A stretch of 64,000 nt of DNA, taken from Haloferula luteola (GTDB lineage: Bacteria; Verrucomicrobiota; Verrucomicrobiia; Verrucomicrobiales; Akkermansiaceae). The notes below the pieces were generated by a model that was not told the DNA's origin, searched no databases, and saw nothing but the letters and a program-made list of their open reading frames with translations. The stretch's first letter is position 1. Each line of letters starts with the position of its first letter. The DNA is taken from the NCBI RefSeq assembly GCF_014201715.1, contig NZ_JACHFD010000003.1:1-64000 (forward strand). Direction: 5' to 3'. Shown one piece after another: positions 52,750-62,599 of the stretch. A program made the position numbers and the translations under genes.

Positions 52750-53322
52750 TCAGAACGAACGCATGCGGTCGGTCAATGTCTGGGAAGAGAGATCCTTGGT
52801 CGCAAAAATCTGGGTCACGTAGACCATCCCGTCATCGGCCACGTAGACCCCCATCCCGGCGCAATCCCACTTCTGACGGAGGTTGTAGAGGTGCTTCTTC
52901 GATTGCACCCAAGCTTGGGTAATCTCACCAGCAACGTCGCCACCCGCTTTGCCGCCTGCGACGTTCTCCGCTAAGGAAAGCATGCCATAGCCCCTCTGCG
53001 CCATCAGCACCCGCTCCTCGAAGCCGACGTGGCTGATGTTCTCCGAACCCAGCGTGAATTTGCCCCGGTTTCTCGCCATGAACTCGCAATGAGCTTGGGC
53101 GAGGCGATCCAACCCAGGGTGACTCGGCAACGCCGATCGCCCGATCGAACCGCGAAACCGATTCACCGACGATTCCAACTGGGACTTCAGGCCACTCGAA
53201 CCTTTCGACTCGACCGGATGCTGCGACATCGCCACTCGGGTCGTATCGAGACTCTGAGCGCATGAAGCAAGGAACAGGAGCCCTCCGGCTCCCACGACTT
53301 GAAACAGATGTTTCGGGAACAT
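52750..53322 (-). CDS. CAP-domain lipoprotein
   Basis: The 190-residue product has a lipobox signal (GLLFLASC). A CAP/SCP domain follows: helix LESSVNRFRGSIGRSALP, LAQAHCEFMARNRGKF, the sheet GSENISHVGFEERV, AENVAGG, and WDCAGMGVYVADDGMVYVTQIFA at the end. One of the usual His ligands is altered to Cys (AHCEFM), which may alter metal binding. It is probably on the outer surface or periplasm. It leads the minus-strand run into rnhB and yraN (8-bp gap). Confidence 0.82.
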   Translation of the reverse strand: MFPKHLFQVVGAGGLLFLASCAQSLDTTRVAMSQHPVESKGSSGLKSQLESSVNRFRGSIGRSALPSHPGLDRLAQAHCEFMARNRGKFTLGSENISHVGFEERVLMAQRGYGMLSLAENVAGGKAGGDVAGEITQAWVQSKKHLYNLRQKWDCAGMGVYVADDGMVYVTQIFATKDLSSQTLTDRMRSF

Positions 53323-53991: not shown

Positions 53992-54690
53992 TCAGTCAAT
54001 GCATCCCCATTCGAAGCGGTATCCCTTCCCCCTGAGGGTAACGATGTACTGTCGGTGGGAGGTATTCGTTTCGATCTTTTGGCGTAGCCATGAGATGTGC
54101 ACATCGACCGTCCGCTCCGTGATGTGGGGTTGGTCCGCCCACACTTGCGAGAGGATCGATTCCCTGGACAAAGTGGAACCTGCATTCTTGACGAGAAGCT
54201 GGAGCAGCTCCGATTCCTTCGTGGTGAGATGGATCGACTCGCCATTCCGATAGACCTTCGATTGGGTGAAATCTGCGATGGTGTCGCCAAACTGAATGGA
54301 GGATCCTTCCCCCAAGTAGGACTTTCTTAGCCGGCGAAGGAGGGCATGGACGCGGGCGACCAGTTCGTCGGGATCGAAGGGTTTTACCATATAGTCGTCC
54401 GCCCCACTTTGAAGGCCTCTGACGCGGTCATGAACGACCCCACGGGCGGTCAACATCAGGATCCCACCTCCGAATCCTTCTTTCCGAACTTCATGGCAGA
54501 TTTCGAAACCCGACTTGCCTGGGAGCATCAGATCGAGAATGAGCAAATCAAACGGCTCGGACCGAGCACGACGGAATCCTGCCTCGCCGTGAGCCGAAGA
54601 CTCCACTTCATGGCCTTCGGAGCGTAGAAGATCCCCGACCACTTCGGCAATGGCGGATTCGTCTTCGATCAGCAGGATCTTGGCTGTCAT
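53992..54690 (-). CDS. OmpR/PhoB-family response regulator
   Basis: A 232-residue regulator with a receiver domain (acidic Asp10, Glu11, phosphoacceptor Asp53 in LLILDLMLPGKSG, Lys in DYMVKPFD) and a winged-helix DNA-binding domain (LTTKESELLQLLVKNAG, ERTVDVHISWLRQKIE, TLRGKGYRFEW). It overlaps the sensor gene by 4 nt, with the sensor upstream and regulator second, which is less usual than the reverse. Its probable site is the CTTAA direct repeat at 56371. Confidence 0.93.
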   Translation of the reverse strand: MTAKILLIEDESAIAEVVGDLLRSEGHEVESSAHGEAGFRRARSEPFDLLILDLMLPGKSGFEICHEVRKEGFGGGILMLTARGVVHDRVRGLQSGADDYMVKPFDPDELVARVHALLRRLRKSYLGEGSSIQFGDTIADFTQSKVYRNGESIHLTTKESELLQLLVKNAGSTLSRESILSQVWADQPHITERTVDVHISWLRQKIETNTSHRQYIVTLRGKGYRFEWGCID

Positions 54691-56321
54691 GGGCAGTGGG
54701 GAGCGAGCGGCAGTCGGAGAGTGAATACCGATTCGCGGCTGTCGCTGGAAACGGAAATCGTTCCGTCGTGAGCTTCCATGATTTCCTTCACCAATGCGAG
54801 TCCAAGTCCGCTGCCTCGGATCTGGGCATCGCGAGCGGCGGAGCCTCGGAAGAACGGAGTGAAGATCTCCTTTTGCTCCTCAGCCGGGATGCCCATTCCC
54901 CGGTTCGAGATCTGGACGATGGCTTGTTCACCATCGCAGAAAACATGGATTCCGATCCATCGATCGCTCCCACCATATTTCGCAGCATTCGAGATGAGGT
55001 TTTGCACCGCTCTTATCAAGGCAGCTTCGTCCGCCATGACCTGGACGGGGTCACCCGCCATGTGAACATCGATCTGCAAGCCGGTGGTTTCAGGCGCTGT
55101 ATTTGCCAAAGCGGTTTCGACGACGCGCTGGAGGGGCAGAAGAGTTGGTTTTGATCCGTGGCCTCTCTGTTTTGTGGTGGAATAATCGAGCACCTGCTGG
55201 ACCATGCCATCGAGCTGCTCCGCATGTTGGAGGATCATCCCAGCGTAACGGTGAATGGCCTCCGGCTCTCGCACAATCCCCCGTTTCAAGTTGTGCGCCG
55301 CTCCGCGAATCACCGTGATCGGCGTCCGAAGTTCGTGAGAAACCCCGGCGACGAAGTCCACCTGAGCTTCGGCCAGTCGACGAGACTTGCGCGTCTGTCG
55401 AACCAGGGCGAGGCCCGCCGCAAAGATCAAAGCGTTGACACCCATCGCGAGCGTCAGATTCCTTCGCTTGGAAGCGGCAGCGATCGTTTCCAGTGCTCCT
55501 GCCTCGCGATGTGTGACCAATGTCCACAGCGGGTTCTGCGGTCGGCCAGTCCGATCGTCTGGGCTCTGACCTTGGAAATGGAAAGACATCTGGATCGGGT
55601 TTTCCCGGGCATCTCGCGGTCCCATTTCGAAGATCGGGAGTGCGTTCCGCCGGTTTCGAGAGATCACCTCGATCCGATAGGGGAAGCTCCCTCCTTGATC
55701 GAAATGCTTCTGGGCAAGTTGAGGCAGCCAGCGGTTGCGCAAATCGTCGCGGTCGATTTCAAGGATGAACCAACCGGCTTCGGCCGGACCGCTGGCTCGC
55801 GAGCTACCGGCCCCCGTGCCATGTCCGCCACGGATGGGGAACTCAAGGAGCAATCCCTCCGGATCCGCGAAAGGAGGAGACCCGCCACGGGATTTCCTCA
55901 GAAGATTCGATTCGAGAGCCGCCCAGCGATCGGGCCACGCTTGCGGCTGCTGAGCCCCGGTAACAAGATCGATTCCCTTCAACTCCAACGATGCCCCTGA
56001 TGGGCGGGCGATTGCCATCCGGGAAAACCGTAAGGGTGAGTGTTGTTGGTTCCACTCCCGCACCCGACGGGCGAAGTCCTCTTCGCCGATCTCTCGTGAA
56101 TTCCCAGGGACCAAGGCCTCACAATGGAGACGCAATTCGCTGTCAAATTCACTGCAAAATCCACGGGCGGCAACCTCTTGGCGATCTTTCAGACTTTCCA
56201 GCTCCGCCGTCGACAGTTCCGCTGTCCACCGAAACTGCAGCACCGTGAGCGCCAGGCAGAACACCGCCAACAACATCAGGAATCCGTGATCGATCCATGC
56301 AGGAGGGCGTCTTCGGTTCAC
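54687..56321 (-). CDS. sensor histidine kinase with two membrane spans
   Basis: I place the start at GTG 56321; TTG 56366 is also open. It then has 544 residues. TM1 (about 14-30) and TM2 (about 290-308) enclose a large periplasmic sensor domain of some 250 residues without a recognised fold. The HisKA domain shows the phosphoacceptor His329 in VSHELRTPITVIRGAAHNL. The HATPase part has N box VQNLISNAAKYG, G1 NRGMGIPAEE, F box and the G2 motif GSGLGLALVKEIMEAH. It is divergent from the DUF3500 gene. Confidence 0.92.
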   Translation of the reverse strand: MNRRRPPAWIDHGFLMLLAVFCLALTVLQFRWTAELSTAELESLKDRQEVAARGFCSEFDSELRLHCEALVPGNSREIGEEDFARRVREWNQQHSPLRFSRMAIARPSGASLELKGIDLVTGAQQPQAWPDRWAALESNLLRKSRGGSPPFADPEGLLLEFPIRGGHGTGAGSSRASGPAEAGWFILEIDRDDLRNRWLPQLAQKHFDQGGSFPYRIEVISRNRRNALPIFEMGPRDARENPIQMSFHFQGQSPDDRTGRPQNPLWTLVTHREAGALETIAAASKRRNLTLAMGVNALIFAAGLALVRQTRKSRRLAEAQVDFVAGVSHELRTPITVIRGAAHNLKRGIVREPEAIHRYAGMILQHAEQLDGMVQQVLDYSTTKQRGHGSKPTLLPLQRVVETALANTAPETTGLQIDVHMAGDPVQVMADEAALIRAVQNLISNAAKYGGSDRWIGIHVFCDGEQAIVQISNRGMGIPAEEQKEIFTPFFRGSAARDAQIRGSGLGLALVKEIMEAHDGTISVSSDSRESVFTLRLPLAPHCP

Positions 56322-56370
56322 ATCCCGAGAATAGGCGCCAAACTGGCACGGGCAATTCCTCAGCAACTTT

Positions 56371-56385
56371 CTTAATATTCCTTAA
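56371..56385. promoter_or_regulatory. CTTAA direct repeat, candidate response-regulator site
   Basis: CTTAA at 56371-56375 recurs at 56381-56385, a 10-bp spacing that would place both on one face of the helix. OmpR/PhoB-type regulators bind such direct repeats. It is between the sensor kinase start and the DUF3500 start (39 bp before its ATG). Confidence 0.5.
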
Positions 56386-56423
56386 CATGACAGAATCGCT
56401 GGGGGCCGCGATGATCGCCAGCG

Positions 56424-58496
56424 ATGACCCCAAACCCTCACTCCCCTCGATTCCATCGCCGTTGCATCCGGTTCCATCGATTTCCTTCGGCGCTGCTTTT
56501 CGCATCCTTCCTTGGCTGCACCGGTTCCACCCTCGCCACCACGACCTCCGAAAACACCGATGCCGTGGTGTCGGCCGCCAATGCGTTTCTCGCTACTCTC
56601 ACCACGACGCAGAAAACCGCGATCGATTCGACATCGAATGTCACCAATGGTGGCACCAATTCCTCCTGCCTCTACAACTCCACTTTGGCGAATGTTGAGA
56701 ACTGGTCGAACATCCCGGTGGCTGCGTCGACGCGCAATGGCCTGCAATTCTCCGCTCTCACGACTCTCCAACTCAACGCCGCCCTCGCCGTGGCCGATGC
56801 CGCGCTGAGCGACTCAGGAACGACACTTCTGGAGGAAATTCGACTGGCCGACCAATACATCAGTGGTGAAGTGACCAACTCGAAAGGCTCCACCTCTGGG
56901 ATGTGGGGGTACGAGAAGTACTACATCGCCTTTGTCGGCACTCCCTCGACTTCCAGCGCGTGGACGCTGCAGCTTGGCGGCCATCACCTCGCCTACAACA
57001 TCACCTACAACGGAAGCTATACCTCCTGTTCGCCGATGTTCTTTGGCACCGAGCCAAACAGCTGGACCTACAACGGATCCACTCACGCTCCCTTGGGGAC
57101 CCTGAGAACCCTCATCACTTCCCTGCGCCCCACCCTTACCTCCTCCGCTCTGCTCAGCGGCACTTACTCCGATGTGGTGTTCGGTCCGAACGGAACCGGA
57201 TCCCACGATACGAACCAACCGAAATCTTACCCCACCAGTGGGCGCGGACAGCTCTACTCCTCCCTCAATTCGACCCAGCAGGGGTTGGTGATCGACTACA
57301 TCACTGATGTGATCGGCAATCATGCCGGTCCCCGTGCAGATGAACTCCTGGCGATCTATTTGAGCGACGAAGCCCTGGCGGAAACCTACATCGGCTATTC
57401 CGGATCCTCTTCGACCTTTTCCACTTCAAGCAGCTACTTCCGGGTGGATGGGCCGCGATTGTGGATCGAGTTCATCGTCCAAGGCGGGGTGTGGGACATG
57501 TCCGGCATCCACGATCACGCGATCTATCGGGACAAGCTGGGCGACTACGGCGCCGCCTATGGTTCCACGACCGTTTCCACTACGCTCCAGCCGCCCTCGA
57601 TCAGCACGCAACCTGCCAGCCAAAGTGCGAGCAGTGGAGATTCTGTCACGCTTTCAGTGACCGCCGCGTCGTCGGGGACGGGTACTTCCACCTTGTCATA
57701 CCAGTGGTTCAAGGATGGAGAAGCCATCTCGAACGCCCTCTCCTCCACTTACACCATCAGCTCCATCGATGCGGAGGATGCCGGCGACTATTCAGTATGG
57801 GTCATCAGCACAGGCGGGCTTGCCGAGAGTTCGGCGGCCACTTTGACCGTCGCCGACAGCCCGGAAATCACCACCACCTCTCCACTAGCCAGTGGAATCG
57901 TGGGAGCGTCCTATTCGGAAACGCTCACCGCCAGCGGTGGCACTTCGCCCTACACTTGGAGTCTTGCATCGGGCAGCCTGCCTGATGGCCTTGCCCTTTC
58001 TTCGGCAGGCGAAATCTCCGGCACCCCAACTGCGGCGGGAGTCTACGAATTCACCTCAGAGGTGACCGATAGTCTTTCGGCCACGGCTTCCACTTCGTTC
58101 TCCTTGGAAATCCTAGAGCCGTTTGACGTGTTTCTTTCCGAATACTCGGTAGGAGACGCGAGTGACGATGACGACAACGACGGAGTCAGCAATCTGCTGG
58201 AATTCCTGCTGGGCGGAGACCCGACCACGGCGGATTCCTCGATCCTTCCAGTGGGGGTGTACGAAAGCGATGCTTCGTCATTTGTCGCCACCTTCAATAT
58301 CACGGTGCCGACGGGATCGGTCACCTGGGAGAGCCAATACAGCATGGATCTCGAAACCTGGACCACCGCCGAGGACGGCACCGATGGAGTGACGGTGGAC
58401 ACAGCCGACCCGCTGGATGGACAAAGCGCCGTCACGGTGACCATCCCATCATCGGAGGACGCGCTCTTCTTTCGGATTCACGCGACCGCTCCCTGA
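56424..58496 (+). CDS. secreted multidomain protein with DUF3500 and Ig-like domains
   Basis: The 690-residue protein has a long signal peptide. Residues 45-385 fit DUF3500, with QLGGHHLAYNITYNGS, a FFGTEP block and SGIHDHAIYRDKLGDYG; conserved His pairs suggest a metal site. Then come an Ig-like domain (about 392-480), a He_PIG-type domain (about 485-570, with SGIVGASYSETLTASGG and GEISGTPTAAG), and an acidic DDDDNDGVSNLLEFLLGGDP motif similar to TSP3. The tail WESQYSMDLETWTTAEDG...FFRIHATAP matches other secreted proteins in this window. It sits 6 bp upstream of the HupE gene, so they are co-expressed. Confidence 0.82.
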   Translation: MTPNPHSPRFHRRCIRFHRFPSALLFASFLGCTGSTLATTTSENTDAVVSAANAFLATLTTTQKTAIDSTSNVTNGGTNSSCLYNSTLANVENWSNIPVAASTRNGLQFSALTTLQLNAALAVADAALSDSGTTLLEEIRLADQYISGEVTNSKGSTSGMWGYEKYYIAFVGTPSTSSAWTLQLGGHHLAYNITYNGSYTSCSPMFFGTEPNSWTYNGSTHAPLGTLRTLITSLRPTLTSSALLSGTYSDVVFGPNGTGSHDTNQPKSYPTSGRGQLYSSLNSTQQGLVIDYITDVIGNHAGPRADELLAIYLSDEALAETYIGYSGSSSTFSTSSSYFRVDGPRLWIEFIVQGGVWDMSGIHDHAIYRDKLGDYGAAYGSTTVSTTLQPPSISTQPASQSASSGDSVTLSVTAASSGTGTSTLSYQWFKDGEAISNALSSTYTISSIDAEDAGDYSVWVISTGGLAESSAATLTVADSPEITTTSPLASGIVGASYSETLTASGGTSPYTWSLASGSLPDGLALSSAGEISGTPTAAGVYEFTSEVTDSLSATASTSFSLEILEPFDVFLSEYSVGDASDDDDNDGVSNLLEFLLGGDPTTADSSILPVGVYESDASSFVATFNITVPTGSVTWESQYSMDLETWTTAEDGTDGVTVDTADPLDGQSAVTVTIPSSEDALFFRIHATAP

Positions 58497-58502
58497 TCGG
58501 AA

Positions 58503-59756
58503 ATGAAGACCATCTTGCTTCTCTTGCTGGCACTCGTCGGCATGGCCTGCGGTCACAACATGCCGGGGTCCTCCGTGGCCCTTGATTTCCAGCCGAACTC
58601 GGTGAATGCGGAGCTAATTCTCCCACTTCAGGAGCTGGAACTGGCCTTCAAACGACCGTTGCTCAAGGAGCCCAAGTCCGCATTCACGCTCCACGAGGCA
58701 GAGCTGCACTCCTACCTTGTCGAGCACGTCCGCCCGGTATCTTCCGATGGTCGTGATTGGAATGTGGAAGTGATGGAAATGCATCTTCAGCTCGACACAG
58801 AGCCCTTCGATTTAGTCGCGACACTTCACCTGACTCCGCCACCGGGAGAAAGTGCGAGACACTTCCGTTTCCACTACTCTGTGATCAACCATGAGGTGAT
58901 GTCTCACTTCGCCACCGTCACGGTGAGATCGGATTGGAACCAGTCGGTGTTTTCCGACCACCCCGAGCCGCTCGGCATGCTCCAATATACCGTCACCTAT
59001 CTCGATGTTGATCGCAGCCAGGGCTCGTGGTTGCAGGGGTGCCGCACGGTTTTCCGACACGGCATGCACCACATCTCAGAAGGAACTGACCACCTGTTGT
59101 TTCTCCTCGTGTTGTTGCTGCCTGCACCGTTGCTGGCCACAGGAAAACGATGGCGTGGCCATCGAGGAACGAAACCGACGATTGCCGGCCTCCTCAAGAT
59201 CATCACCGCGTTCACCTTGGGCCATTCCCTAACGCTGATCGTCGCCGGCCTCGGGTGGGTAAACCTTCCGTCGCAGCCGGTTGAAGTTCTGATCGCGCTT
59301 TCGATTCTCGTGTCCGCCGTGCATGCCGTGCGGCCTTTGTTCGCAGGCCGAGAGGCCTGGGTCGCGGCAGGTTTCGGTCTGGTGCACGGTCTTGCCTTCG
59401 CGAGCACCTTGGAAATCTATGGATTCTCCCGGGGTTACCTGCTGCTCACGATCGTGGCGTTCAATTTAGGCATCGAGGCGATGCAATTGATGGTGGTGGC
59501 CTGCGTGATCCCATGGATCGTCATCCTTGGCCGGACGAAAGCCTATACCTGGCTTCGGCAATCCGCCGCGTTCTTTGCTGCTGCGGCAGCCATCGGATGG
59601 ATCGGCGATCGCAGCTTCGGATGGGGAAACCCCATCGAGCCAGTGGTCGCCTCCGTCTCTTCCCACGCTGGCTGGATCGTCGCGGCACTGGCGTTGGCAG
59701 CCATCACCGTGTTGCTTCGAAGCGGCCCCACCCAAAGAGCGGCGGCAACCGACTGA
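58503..59756 (+). CDS. HupE/UreJ-family membrane protein
   Basis: HupE/UreJ proteins are metal permeases or accessory proteins, some shown to carry nickel. This 417-residue member has a signal peptide, a 190-residue external domain, and then about six or seven spans. The family core holds His-rich motifs: RHGMHHISEGTDHLLFLL, FTLGHSLTLIV and GFGLVHGLAFASTLEI. Those His and Asp residues are candidate metal ligands. It follows the DUF3500 gene by 6 bp and ends at a terminator candidate. Copper or nickel substrate is not decided. Confidence 0.86.
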   Translation: MKTILLLLLALVGMACGHNMPGSSVALDFQPNSVNAELILPLQELELAFKRPLLKEPKSAFTLHEAELHSYLVEHVRPVSSDGRDWNVEVMEMHLQLDTEPFDLVATLHLTPPPGESARHFRFHYSVINHEVMSHFATVTVRSDWNQSVFSDHPEPLGMLQYTVTYLDVDRSQGSWLQGCRTVFRHGMHHISEGTDHLLFLLVLLLPAPLLATGKRWRGHRGTKPTIAGLLKIITAFTLGHSLTLIVAGLGWVNLPSQPVEVLIALSILVSAVHAVRPLFAGREAWVAAGFGLVHGLAFASTLEIYGFSRGYLLLTIVAFNLGIEAMQLMVVACVIPWIVILGRTKAYTWLRQSAAFFAAAAAIGWIGDRSFGWGNPIEPVVASVSSHAGWIVAALALAAITVLLRSGPTQRAAATD

Positions 59757-59818
59757 ATCCTCTTCTATCCATCCCGTCGCTGGGGTGTTTGAAGAGACGG
59801 CAAGAAAAGTCGTGATTC

Positions 59819-59866
59819 CACCTCGGGGCGGCGCGTCACAAGCTCGATCTGCTGAGGTGCTTTTTT
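59819..59866 (+). terminator. terminator candidate after the HupE gene
   Basis: CACCTC (59819-59824) and GAGGTG (59854-59859) are complementary with a long loop, followed by C then TTTTTT. The long loop lowers confidence, but the T-run is strong. Confidence 0.5.
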
Positions 59867-59886: not shown

Positions 59887-60726
59887 CTACGGTGCCGAAG
59901 CATCGGGCTTGATGCCCAATGGATCCGTCAACTCACGGATATGAGGCGGAATTTGGCTGGTGATCCAACTCTTTCCCTCCGGCGCGTCGGGCGAGTCCTG
60001 CCGGGTAATCCGATACACGAGAGAACCGTCCGATTGGCTTTCATATCGAATGGAATACGCTCCTGAAACCTCATGTCCCCACTTTCCGAAAGCTTCGTCT
60101 GCGCGGCTGCACGTCAGGAATGCCGCTGCCCTTTCAGATCCGAGAGTGTCCTCGGCATCCTGATAGAATTGCCGGCGGATGGCATCGCCGTCGAACGGAT
60201 CGACACCGAACCAAAGCCGATCTTCCCTCTGCTCCGACCGGAGCCCTTCATGCTGACGAACAAGGACGCGATCTTTTACTTTCGCCCAGCTCCGTTCCAG
60301 CCGAGCTTTCTCAGATTCCGTCATTCCTAGCGCCTCCGCCACGGGATCGCCGTCGGAGAAAAGGACCCTGCGTTGTTCGAGCACGGGTTGGGTGATTCGC
60401 GTCAGGCTGACAATCACAGCGGGGTCCAGACCGATCATCGGACGGACGGGATCAACAGTCGTATGATTGGCTTGAGGTCTTGCTGTGAGCTTGGAGGCCA
60501 GGATCGGCGCCTCCTCGTGATCGTGAGTCTCCTGATGATTTCGAGACATCGTCAGTCTCGTCGGAGTGGACCCTTGGTCGATGGCTCCATGGCGAGGCAC
60601 TCGAGCCCCTACCCCCATCCCGATGACCAATCCCCCGCAAAAGACACCCACAAGGACGCCAAGGGGGATCCGAGAAACCCCGCCCGAATCCTTCGGGCGG
60701 GGCGATGGATGACTCGGTCGGCTCAT
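59887..60726 (-). CDS. membrane-anchored protein of unknown function
   Basis: 279 residues with a proline-rich cytoplasmic start, one span near 20-42 (PLGVLVGVFCGGLVIGMGV), then a soluble helical domain. The His-rich patch RNHQETHDHEEAP follows. A helical segment holds ESEKARLERSWAKVKDRVLV. It has no recognised family. Its start overlaps the LamG protein's stop by 4 nt, so it is made with that secreted protein and may help in its export or anchoring. Confidence 0.68.
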   Translation of the reverse strand: MSRPSHPSPRPKDSGGVSRIPLGVLVGVFCGGLVIGMGVGARVPRHGAIDQGSTPTRLTMSRNHQETHDHEEAPILASKLTARPQANHTTVDPVRPMIGLDPAVIVSLTRITQPVLEQRRVLFSDGDPVAEALGMTESEKARLERSWAKVKDRVLVRQHEGLRSEQREDRLWFGVDPFDGDAIRRQFYQDAEDTLGSERAAAFLTCSRADEAFGKWGHEVSGAYSIRYESQSDGSLVYRITRQDSPDAPEGKSWITSQIPPHIRELTDPLGIKPDASAP

Positions 60727-62576
60727 GGAGTGACTTCGATGCCAAGAGCATCAATGTAAAGAGAGTCCAGTGTCCGATTGCCTTGGGAGCGATTGGTGTC
60801 CTTTACCCGAATCTGAACGCTGCCGCTCAATCCCGCAGGCAGTTGGGCGATCTGCGCCACATTGTCGTCAGCGACTTTCGTGATGGTGAGAACGTCAGTG
60901 AAGCTCACCCCATCCGTTGAATAGGCAAAGACGAAGTCGTCCCCTTCCAGATTGACGCTATGGTAAGCCTCGACTGACAATTCCACTTGGGAACCGCCGG
61001 ATCCAAGGTCAAAGGTCCAAACGTGTTCAAGGTAGGAATAGCGGCGATTTTGTCGTCCTCCTGATTCGATCTCACGAAGTTCCTCGTAGCTATTATCCGA
61101 GCTGAGGGTGCTGGAATAGCTGCCGCTGACCATCGTTCCGGCGACGACCGTTTCCCCATTGGCGCGATAGGTGGATGCACTCGGCTGCGGATCGACAGTC
61201 ATTTGCAGAGTCGCAGAGTCGCTCAATCCTCCACCGTCGGTCACCTGAATGGTCCATTGATTGGTGCCAACATCTTCCGAAGATGGAATGCCACTTAGCG
61301 TGCCATCTGTCGAGACGGAGAGCCATGCCGGCCCACCCACGACTGCGAAGTACAGCGTGTCCCCTGCATCCGGGTCGCTGGCATCAGCGGAAATACTACC
61401 TTCATAGTTCGTTCCCTGAGTCGCATTCACTTTGATGAGCAACGATGATGCGAATGACGGCGCATGATTGGATGACGATGTCTGGGGTGTCGCCGAAGCC
61501 TCTGCTGAGAAGCCACTCTCACCATACTCGTTCGAAGCAGTCGCAACGTAGTAGTAGGTGACCCCGTTGGAAAGGCCGGTATCCAGATACTGCAAGCCGG
61601 TCACTTGGGTGGCCACAGCTGTGTATGGCCCCCCACTATTTCCACTACGATACACACGATAGCTCGTCGCATCACTTGCGGCATCCCAGATCAGCGTAGT
61701 TTGAGTGTCCCCTGCCATGGCAGAGAAATTCAACGGCGCCGAAGGTGCAGATGGTCCCGCGAGAGGAGATGGGTCCGAGGTGACGGTCTCAGGTCCAGCC
61801 TGATAGTTGCCCAGCACCTGTTGGGAGCTAAGCGCATAGTCATAAATACGGAATTCCTCGAAAGTCGCGTCAGAGTTGCTGTCTGACGACCAATTCGAGC
61901 GCCCGAGCCAAACATTGACGTCATCGAGAGTGCTCGGCCCCAAAAGACTTGGCACCGAACCGATCTGCACACCATTTTTGTACAGATACCAAGTGGAAGC
62001 GGCGTTGTCGAAGGTGACGACGACATGCATCTGAGAGCCGATGTCTGTCGCGCCAGTGATGTCCAGACCTCCGCCTCCCGTGAGACCGAGGCCTCCGCGT
62101 TCGAAGCGCATATCGTTGGAGGTGCCAACCGTCGCTGTGATCTCGAGGTAATCCGATCCGTAAAACGAGCTGCCGGTTGTGGTGACCTCTCCCACGGAAT
62201 TGTTCCCGAAGTCGAGGATACGCGACATGCTTTGCTCGCTATGAACGGTGAGCCAAACTTCGTAGCTGGCCTCGGAGAGGCCGGGGAAGATCTCGCCCGA
62301 TCCTGATACGGAGCCATTGGGGAGGTCGATGTATGGAGCACTTGCGGAGGAACCACCCATGAGTCGGACTCCCGACCCAGTAGCGCTGGCGCCACTTCCG
62401 CGGATCGAAGCGTGCGCGGTTCCAATCGAATCGGCGAGTTGGGAGCCATCGCTGAGCGATCCACTTGCGTTATCGAAGCGGTAGCGGTGGATCGGTCCGT
62501 AGGTGAGAGCCTCCTGTGCCTGTGAGGAGGCGGCGAACGCCGCAAGCATGGCGGCGATCTTGAGAACTGATTTCAT
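60723..62576 (-). CDS. large secreted LamG/FN3/Ig-like protein
   Basis: The start at ATG 62576 gives a signal peptide (SVLKIAAMLAAFAASSQA) and 617 residues. Domain order: a LamG/concanavalin-type lectin domain (about 25-235, with YLYKNGVQIG and FEEFRIYDYALS), a fibronectin type III domain (about 250-345), a cadherin- or putative-Ig-like domain (about 350-440, with DASDPDAGDTLYF and DGGGLSDSATLQM), and a C-terminal sandwich. Such proteins bind carbohydrate at the surface or in secreted form. It is 23 bp downstream of the M11-like metallopeptidase and coupled to the membrane-anchored gene. Confidence 0.82.
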   Translation of the reverse strand: MKSVLKIAAMLAAFAASSQAQEALTYGPIHRYRFDNASGSLSDGSQLADSIGTAHASIRGSGASATGSGVRLMGGSSASAPYIDLPNGSVSGSGEIFPGLSEASYEVWLTVHSEQSMSRILDFGNNSVGEVTTTGSSFYGSDYLEITATVGTSNDMRFERGGLGLTGGGGLDITGATDIGSQMHVVVTFDNAASTWYLYKNGVQIGSVPSLLGPSTLDDVNVWLGRSNWSSDSNSDATFEEFRIYDYALSSQQVLGNYQAGPETVTSDPSPLAGPSAPSAPLNFSAMAGDTQTTLIWDAASDATSYRVYRSGNSGGPYTAVATQVTGLQYLDTGLSNGVTYYYVATASNEYGESGFSAEASATPQTSSSNHAPSFASSLLIKVNATQGTNYEGSISADASDPDAGDTLYFAVVGGPAWLSVSTDGTLSGIPSSEDVGTNQWTIQVTDGGGLSDSATLQMTVDPQPSASTYRANGETVVAGTMVSGSYSSTLSSDNSYEELREIESGGRQNRRYSYLEHVWTFDLGSGGSQVELSVEAYHSVNLEGDDFVFAYSTDGVSFTDVLTITKVADDNVAQIAQLPAGLSGSVQIRVKDTNRSQGNRTLDSLYIDALGIEVTP

Positions 62577-62599
62577 GGTCTTGTAAGTTTCAGAGGATT

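Follow-up and report, generated by a model that had tools for sequence, protein, structure and literature searches.

A DUF3500 protein, a His-starting HupE partner and a rare two-component system in Haloferula luteola: a possible inducible extracytoplasmic enzyme module

What joins a DUF3500 protein, a HupE-type membrane protein and a two-component system (TCS) in one locus is the question raised by four genes of Haloferula luteola, which lie in the first 64,000 nucleotides of contig NZ_JACHFD010000003.1, the stretch analysed here and hereafter called the window. In this locus, a sensor kinase/OmpR-type regulator pair on the minus strand diverges from the genes of a DUF3500 and a HupE_UreJ_2 protein on the plus strand. 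A preliminary description, made from the sequence alone, had proposed a metal acquisition system in which DUF3500 captures a metal at the surface and feeds the permease, under the control of a sensor of its own. The divergent arrangement that it described was fully recovered, as all four genes are present and those of DUF3500 and HupE are 6 bp apart (58497-58502). The answer that we favour is a different one, tentative and somewhat short of an even chance, namely that the locus encodes an inducible enzyme module working outside the cytoplasm, made of a DUF3500 metalloenzyme and a metal-handling partner under a rare TCS, the substrate, metal and signal of which we infer. The features on which the argument draws are the following.

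53992-54690, minus strand: OmpR/PhoB-type response regulator with Response_reg and Trans_reg_C domains (open reading frame and Pfam; best NCBIfam scores below curated cut-offs)
54687-56321, minus strand: sensor histidine kinase with a likely GTG start; the called open reading frame, from TTG, is 54687-56366 (open reading frame, Pfam and orthologue alignment)
56370-56392, plus strand: candidate operator, tandem TTAAYA/TTAACA half-sites at 10-bp spacing, TCTTAATATTCCTTAACATGACA (locus comparison and pattern counts)
56424-58496, plus strand: DUF3500 protein, 690 aa, with an export-like N-terminus (open reading frame and Pfam; signal peptide by eye)
56550-57551, plus strand: DUF3500 domain, ApmL-like fold, with an invariant GGHH pair and HDH with RD..DYG (Pfam, model and alignment)
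57591-58112, plus strand: Ig-like (Ig_3) and He_PIG domains of the DUF3500 protein (Pfam)
58503-59756, plus strand: HupE_UreJ_2 membrane protein, 417 aa, with an N-terminal extracytoplasmic domain (open reading frame, Pfam, alignment and model)
58554-59018, plus strand: His-starting N-terminal domain (residues 18-172), anglerase-like, with the His18 codon at 58554-58556 (alignments and fold match)
59052-59531, plus strand: HupE_UreJ_2 transmembrane domain (Pfam)

DUF3500 (PF12006) is matched at 170.9 bits against a cut-off of 27.2, and HupE_UreJ_2 (PF13795) at 140.3 bits against 24.5, over residues 184-343. Signal peptides were judged by eye throughout, and the Ig_3 and He_PIG domains of the DUF3500 protein are probable extracellular spacers. 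The regulator frame lies nearly entirely outside the range of the preliminary description (54687-59866). As regards the kinase, the called TTG start at 56366 almost touches the CTTAA repeat discussed below, and the GTG at 56321 is preferred because its alignment column is occupied by ATG in two orthologues; with this start, the intergenic region corresponds to 56322-56423 and contains the repeat.

The pairing of DUF3500 with its downstream neighbour carries most of the argument. In the order Verrucomicrobiales, DUF3500 is found in 218 of 288 genomes and HupE_UreJ_2 in 133, and orthologues of the window DUF3500 are present in three other genomes of this set, at 59-68% identity. G146 and G251 have the full four-gene locus in the same arrangement as the window, while in G094, from the same family as the window genome, the gene after DUF3500 overlaps it by 4 bp and encodes a 187-aa counterpart of the HupE N-terminal domain, with no membrane part and no TCS alongside. 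A scan of 84,980 species genomes, based on the orthologue alignment and on two peptide patterns (one of them GGHHLAYN), returned 13 loci, 11 of which have a HupE-type or His-starting gene directly downstream; the partner is HupE-type by profile at ten loci (L079-L088), and in Yoonia maritima (L090) it is a His-starting 180-aa protein with a 4-bp overlap and a weak profile match (E 1.2e-6); the remaining two loci, both of Nocardiopsis, are unpaired. Profile searches in 325 genomes around L082 (eight with a DUF3500 match) and in 318 genomes around Yoonia (16 with a match) added a pair with a complete HupE (L093), two pairs without a membrane part (L094 and L095) and a second Yoonia pair (L119), the remaining matches being unpaired save for the query loci found again. 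Finally, in G021 and G139 (L041 and L042) a His-starting 186-aa protein overlaps DUF3500 by 19 bp.

When 98 DUF3500 domains were placed on a tree, a single clade of 24 rows took in all 20 paired copies (SH-aLRT 87, quick method), and the paired state requires 3 changes compared with a shuffled mean of 18.5. Paired rows of known phylum belong to Verrucomicrobiota, Pseudomonadota and Myxococcota, and every pair is adjacent on the same strand, with a 4-bp overlap in 7 of the 20. The tree holds one row per gene, with duplicates excluded by hand (L119/L127, L094/L123, L095/L124, L041/L070, L042/L071 and L090/L103/L128 are the same genes) and rows shorter than 220 aa to be dropped, which applied to none; 12 rows come from the peptide-pattern scan, which favours GGHHLAYN, and 86 from other searches. 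The next gene was read as the longest same-strand open reading frame near the DUF3500 end, so that a short His-starting gene without a profile match could escape, and it was this reading by itself that set the pairing of L041, L042 and L119. Adjacency as a general property of DUF3500 was rejected, as the partner profile finds no match at 30 ordinary loci (L007-L036) from the order, and the other DUF3500 of the window genome (C16) is unpaired. The HupE genes of G101 and G130 (L072 and L073), whose matched stretch is similarly long, were considered as hidden pairs and discarded, with no DUF3500 alongside. On this comparative evidence, the DUF3500-partner pair is a genuine and old one, and the adjacency beyond close relatives, a check suggested by the preliminary description, is found in 20 pairs of one clade and three phyla. 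A remote and shorter DUF3500 group, with frames of 304-334 aa, also occurs in two genera of the family (G143, G154, G231, G243, G248, G269 and G273); the Pfam model matches only its first half and, where both are listed, it is off the HupE contig or far away.

The composition of the partners bears directly on the role of the permease. A HupE membrane domain is present in 12 of the 20 partners and absent from eight (L038, L041, L042, L080, L090, L094, L095 and L119), and the constant partner is an exported His-starting protein or domain, not the permease. The feature that gives the domain its name is His18, the first residue after the signal peptide-like stretch, which is invariant in 14 aligned partners (14 of the 20) and preceded by Ala in nearly all of them, the window sequence at this point being ACG. 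It is also invariant in all seven sequences of a narrower comparison, which includes the window, G251, G146, the G094 domain and three other HupE paralogues of the window genome. In the 14 aligned partners, V132 is invariant, and H130 and H135 (H-x-V-x-x-H) are kept in at least 90%. Profiles of the EF-hand-like His-starting proteins and of the HupE-type proteins match weakly, over 39 N-terminal columns with a probability of 15%, and a common origin is not established by this match.

An AlphaFold2 model of the HupE protein (mean pLDDT 75.9, pTM 0.59, 11 rows) has as its best Protein Data Bank (PDB) match 9GCE, the copper-bound Ang-1 domain, with a Foldseek E of 9.4e-5 and, in VIA, a Z of 12.0 and an rmsd of 3.0 over 136 aligned residues at 13% identity, starting from residue 18 of the model and residue 1 of the chain. 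The next structural matches are ZrgA and PA4063, both with zinc-bound entries, and a search of PDB sequences with the HupE profile gave no match. According to the available text of PMC12537917, the HupE/UreJ_2 anglerases Ang-1 and Ang-2 bind copper with a Kd of 62-74 nM and are proposed to capture metal and feed the permease; the word DUF3500 is absent from the main text of that paper. The window HupE protein shares with the anglerases the PF13795 membrane domain, the exported N-domain with a conserved His that is likely to be its mature first residue, and the 9GCE fold, and differs from them in sitting behind DUF3500, in being only 13% identical to 9GCE, in also keeping H130 and H135, and in having stand-alone versions of its His-starting domain beside DUF3500. 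The model points to the HupE protein as the likely metal-handling half of the pair; the idea that one member of the pair handles metal is thereby retained for the His-starting HupE N-domain and given up for DUF3500.

The strongest alternative keeps metal acquisition as the purpose of the locus and shifts the roles, so that the His-domain of HupE would catch copper or nickel for its own permease and DUF3500 would free the metal from chelators such as polyphenols. We regard it as unlikely, yet it stays in play because 12 of the 20 loci keep the permease, and it accords with the metal capture and uptake proposed for the copper-binding His1 protein of HupE/UreJ_2 type (available text of PMC12537917). 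It is weakened by the eight pairs that lack a permease domain and beside which no HupE gene was seen, as well as by a TCS that misfits the metal-sensor families and whose relatives adjoin genes not recognised as metal genes. Indeed, the strongest single argument on the role of the partner is that DUF3500 keeps a first-His protein even at loci without the permease, which speaks against import as a purpose common to the pairs, and the link through metal uptake by a permease that the preliminary description had drawn is not supported.

The nature of DUF3500 itself is indicated by its predicted fold. The sole clear structural relative of the domain model is 9X86, the dehydratase ApmL of amipurimycin biosynthesis (Amc20 in the sequence file), with a Foldseek E of 3.4e-14 and a VIA Z of 20.1 and rmsd of 3.2 over 248 of 255 residues, the next best Z being 3.2; the sequence profile also matches 9X86 (E 1.5e-37). 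H160, H161, H336 and H338 are present in all 98 domains, R342 in 97 and E322 in 95, and both GHH and HxH are retained in 9X86. Thus ApmL shares with the window protein these motifs and the fold over nearly the whole chain; it differs in that the window protein is export-like, has Ig-like domains and shares 23% identity with it where the two align, and the reaction may differ as well. On the strength of the model, an enzyme is a likelier reading of DUF3500 than a metal trap, and the part of metal-capture protein that it had been given is not supported, since it matches the enzyme structure 9X86 and the candidate for metal binding is the HupE N-domain, with His18 and the 9GCE fold. A metal requirement of the enzyme is suggested by the invariant histidines.

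As for the reaction, the available text of the review PMC12388069 relays a proposal that a fungal DUF3500 protein converts 1,2,3,5-tetrahydroxybenzene to 5-hydroxydienelactone as a putative dioxygenase. This catabolic protein, AN10530, is called DUF3500-containing in that text, and it is likened to the window protein through the family name. Dioxygenase_C (PF00775) is not among the nine families of the window DUF3500 protein (E up to 1), so that the likeness to intradiol enzymes is a functional analogy only. Two further neighbourhoods of DUF3500 were noted: a FAD_binding_3 gene follows a distant DUF3500 after 18 bp in G808, which belongs to the class of Yoonia, and in the available text of PMC8416521 a DUF3500 locus tag is close to a 3-(3-hydroxyphenyl)propionate hydroxylase among the unique genes of a Rhodococcus strain. 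No tested bacterial function of DUF3500 was met in the available parts of the literature naming the family and, among the matches listed, none linked DUF3500 with HupE and none dealt with ApmL.

Given these two halves, a second alternative is that they assemble into a single physical complex, where redox or metal activity would reside in the His-starting domain, its copper donating electrons or supporting oxygen chemistry, where the substrate would be held by DUF3500 and where metal transport would be secondary. The strict adjacency of all 20 pairs on one strand, the overlap in seven and the persistence of pairing past the loss of the permease are in its favour, and so is the weak oxidase activity reported for copper-loaded anglerases; the same source, in its available text (PMC12537917), yet describes no substantial oxidase or peroxidase activity, and the L041, L042 and Yoonia partners differ in sequence from the HupE-type domain. 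A complex of this type seems to us improbable.

The identity of the TCS was evaluated against curated families, as the preliminary description had the proposed metal system switched on by a sensor of its own. No Pfam family matches the extracytoplasmic domain of the kinase (about 250 aa), which is present in 6 of the 288 genomes of the order and has no sequence match among solved structures. It scores 114.3 bits against the heavy-metal sensor kinase TIGR01386 (CusS-type; cut-off 292.55), 93.6 bits against the copper/silver kinase model (cut-off 423) and 156.8 bits against PhoR_proteo (cut-off 334.2), while the regulator reaches 182.7 bits against the heavy-metal response regulator TIGR01387 (cut-off 279.2) and 197.7 bits against PhoB (cut-off 296.2). 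The window TCS resembles the metal-sensing systems CusRS, CopRS and CzcRS in the general architecture of a kinase with an OmpR-type regulator and departs from them in scores that fall far under the curated cut-offs. A metal-sensing TCS is unsupported, because the cut-offs of the metal families are missed and the relatives of this rare sensor adjoin intradiol dioxygenase and glucuronoyl esterase genes. The window TCS is not carried by the non-Verrucomicrobiota pairs examined. Yoonia maritima (L128:9526-14295) has an unrelated regulator/kinase pair about 1 kb upstream of DUF3500 and its His-starting gene, a second case of a TCS near a pair.

The CTTAA repeat with exact 10-bp spacing that had been noticed in the gap is confirmed, with copies at 56371-56375 and 56381-56385, and is conserved at all six kinase loci. 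The 64-kb window has a single CTTAAN5CTTAA, compared with a shuffle mean of 0.02. The sequence TCTTAAYAYTCCTTAACAYGACA is kept in the intergenic regions of the three complete loci (G000, G146 and G251), where the surrounding sequence has diverged, and among 135 loci it is matched by nine, all of them copies of these three. Exact matches of the 17-bp core are confined to this locus in the same three genomes, with none in G094, whose DUF3500 has no kinase beside it; two mismatches allow two sites elsewhere (G000:C4 and G094:C190). TTAAG-N5-TTAAG, the site first noticed at the DUF3500 loci, lies near the kinase gene in each of the other three kinase loci (G157, G209 and G215). The pattern TTAAGNANTRTTAAG, derived from the six kinase loci, has exact matches in all six genomes (1, 1, 1, 9, 2 and 1 sites), eight of those in G157 being additional to the kinase locus, and none in any of 16 relatives without the kinase. 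A promoter scan gave one weak match and was not used. By sequence conservation, 56370-56392 is a probable operator, and the tandem site behaves as a conserved site that travels with this kinase. In G157, two contig ends (C45/C44; L169 from 8311 and L170 to about 735) bear a tandem array of units of about 205 bp containing the operator sequence, in which seven exact copies were counted (3 and 4); the array may be a promoter with several sites or serve to decoy the regulator.

These features also allow a third alternative to be weighed, in which the locus belongs to a cell-envelope or phosphate-type stress regulon with a PhoBR/PhoPR-like envelope sensor, and the task of the exported pair is surface repair or remodelling. 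The best NCBIfam scores go in this direction, with PnpS and PhoR for the kinase and MtrA, RpaB and PhoB for the regulator, as do the TTAACA direct repeats, which we take to resemble PhoP boxes; all of these scores are nevertheless far below the curated cut-offs, and the tandem site is unlike a general Pho box because the exact site is absent from all 16 relatives without the kinase. We hold such a regulon to be quite improbable. Less credible still, with hardly any chance, is an accident of shared operons, whereby DUF3500 and HupE are simply common exported proteins in a mixed operon run by the TCS, which would suit the 78 unpaired DUF3500 genes among the 98 of the tree (L008, L047 and L057, with less than 210 bases downstream, being counted as unpaired) and not a pairing that is restricted to one clade, kept over three phyla at close spacing and missing by profile from the 30 ordinary loci (one of which, L008, has 209 bases downstream).

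The genes that accompany the kinase relatives and their sites give some indication of what may be sensed. The divergent neighbour of the kinase-regulator pair in G209 is an intradiol dioxygenase gene (PF00775, E 2.9e-21; export signal by eye), followed by an FGE-sulfatase-domain gene, and the site lies between the divergent genes; on a 3-kb contig of G215, the same site is found with a kinase that closely resembles that of G209. In G157 the gene before the kinase encodes a glucuronoyl esterase, and other exact sites are found before a GDSL esterase and, in the form of the array, close to a CitMHS/SLC13 transporter. The regulator of G146 has GDSL and glucuronoyl esterase genes behind it, and the glucuronoyl esterases of G146 and G157 are 73% identical. 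No metal genes were recognised at the kinase loci that bear an intradiol dioxygenase or a glucuronoyl esterase, and a metal-sensing TCS gains no support from this company. G209 has a second exact operator site upstream of a sigma-70 region 2 gene (L137:4548-5150), and its regulator may control an alternative sigma factor.

In the enzyme module that we favour, the kinase would sense an organic signal, probably plant-derived or aromatic, and the regulator would bind the tandem TTAACA site and activate the DUF3500 and HupE genes, the direction of regulation being presumed as well; the two proteins would be translated together. DUF3500 would act outside the cytoplasm as a metal-dependent enzyme, its most likely substrate being a polyhydroxylated aromatic or plant-derived compound, and the partner with the leading His would bind a transition metal, copper in the first place, and supply it to DUF3500 or handle metal around it. 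Import through the HupE/UreJ_2 permease would be an optional extra. A bolder form of this proposal, speculative and slightly less probable than the shifted-role metal acquisition considered above, makes the DUF3500 clade a new class of exported four-histidine metalloenzymes for polyhydroxylated aromatic or plant-derived compounds, with a dedicated His1 (mono-histidine-brace-type) metal donor fused to, or freed from, a HupE permease, and the window version switched by a compound-sensing TCS through the tandem TTAACA operator.

Several points weigh against the enzyme module. The TCS stands outside any general DUF3500 module because, among the loci scanned, the kinase profile is strong only in G251 and G146 and weak in Yoonia, and the company of the kinase is known from six genomes. 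TTAAGNANTRTTAAG is present at the six kinase loci by construction, since the pattern was built from those sites, and its absence from the 16 relatives mainly excludes a general box, as an exact match seldom arises by chance; once a single mismatch is allowed, a reversed control is matched as often or more in most of these relatives, so that the weaker sites are given no weight. Nor is the regulon purely aromatic, because sites adjoin the CitMHS/SLC13 transporter of G157 and the sigma-70 region 2 gene of G209, and no aromatic-catabolism gene was seen beside the window locus or beside the pairs examined in other phyla. As regards the enzyme, the domain model is modest (mean pLDDT 73.1, pTM 0.78, 14 rows), 9X86 is annotated as a dehydratase and not as an oxygenase, and the fungal dioxygenase role is itself termed putative in the available text of PMC12388069. 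As regards the pair, the support of the clade comes from a quick tree, two Nocardiopsis copies and L104/L105 fall inside it without such a partner, the profile matches neither the L041 nor the L042 partner and finds little or nothing in those of Yoonia, and a transporter-like gene, by eye of the EamA type, comes after the second Yoonia partner.

The surroundings of the locus were inspected as well. Adjoining it on the minus strand, 60726-62627 encodes a LamG/He_PIG protein and 62600-63946 a protein with ricin-type lectin-like repeats (by eye), both likely to be further exported surface proteins, and a CAP-family (SCP-like) gene lies beyond the regulator at 52750-53322 (21.8 bits against a Pfam cut-off of 21.1).

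Each part of the locus is of a known kind, and its combination, distribution and the company of its regulator were not found in the literature searched. The persistence of an exported His-starting HupE domain beside DUF3500 in the absence of a permease suggests that such a domain may serve beyond metal import. DUF3500, which 218 of the 288 genomes of the order possess, gains a concrete and testable role through a fixed metal-type partner, a solved enzyme fold and a rare regulator akin to those of ring-cleavage-dioxygenase loci. Collectively, an enzyme and a copper-binding-type domain standing side by side in three phyla provide a first testable idea for this common family.

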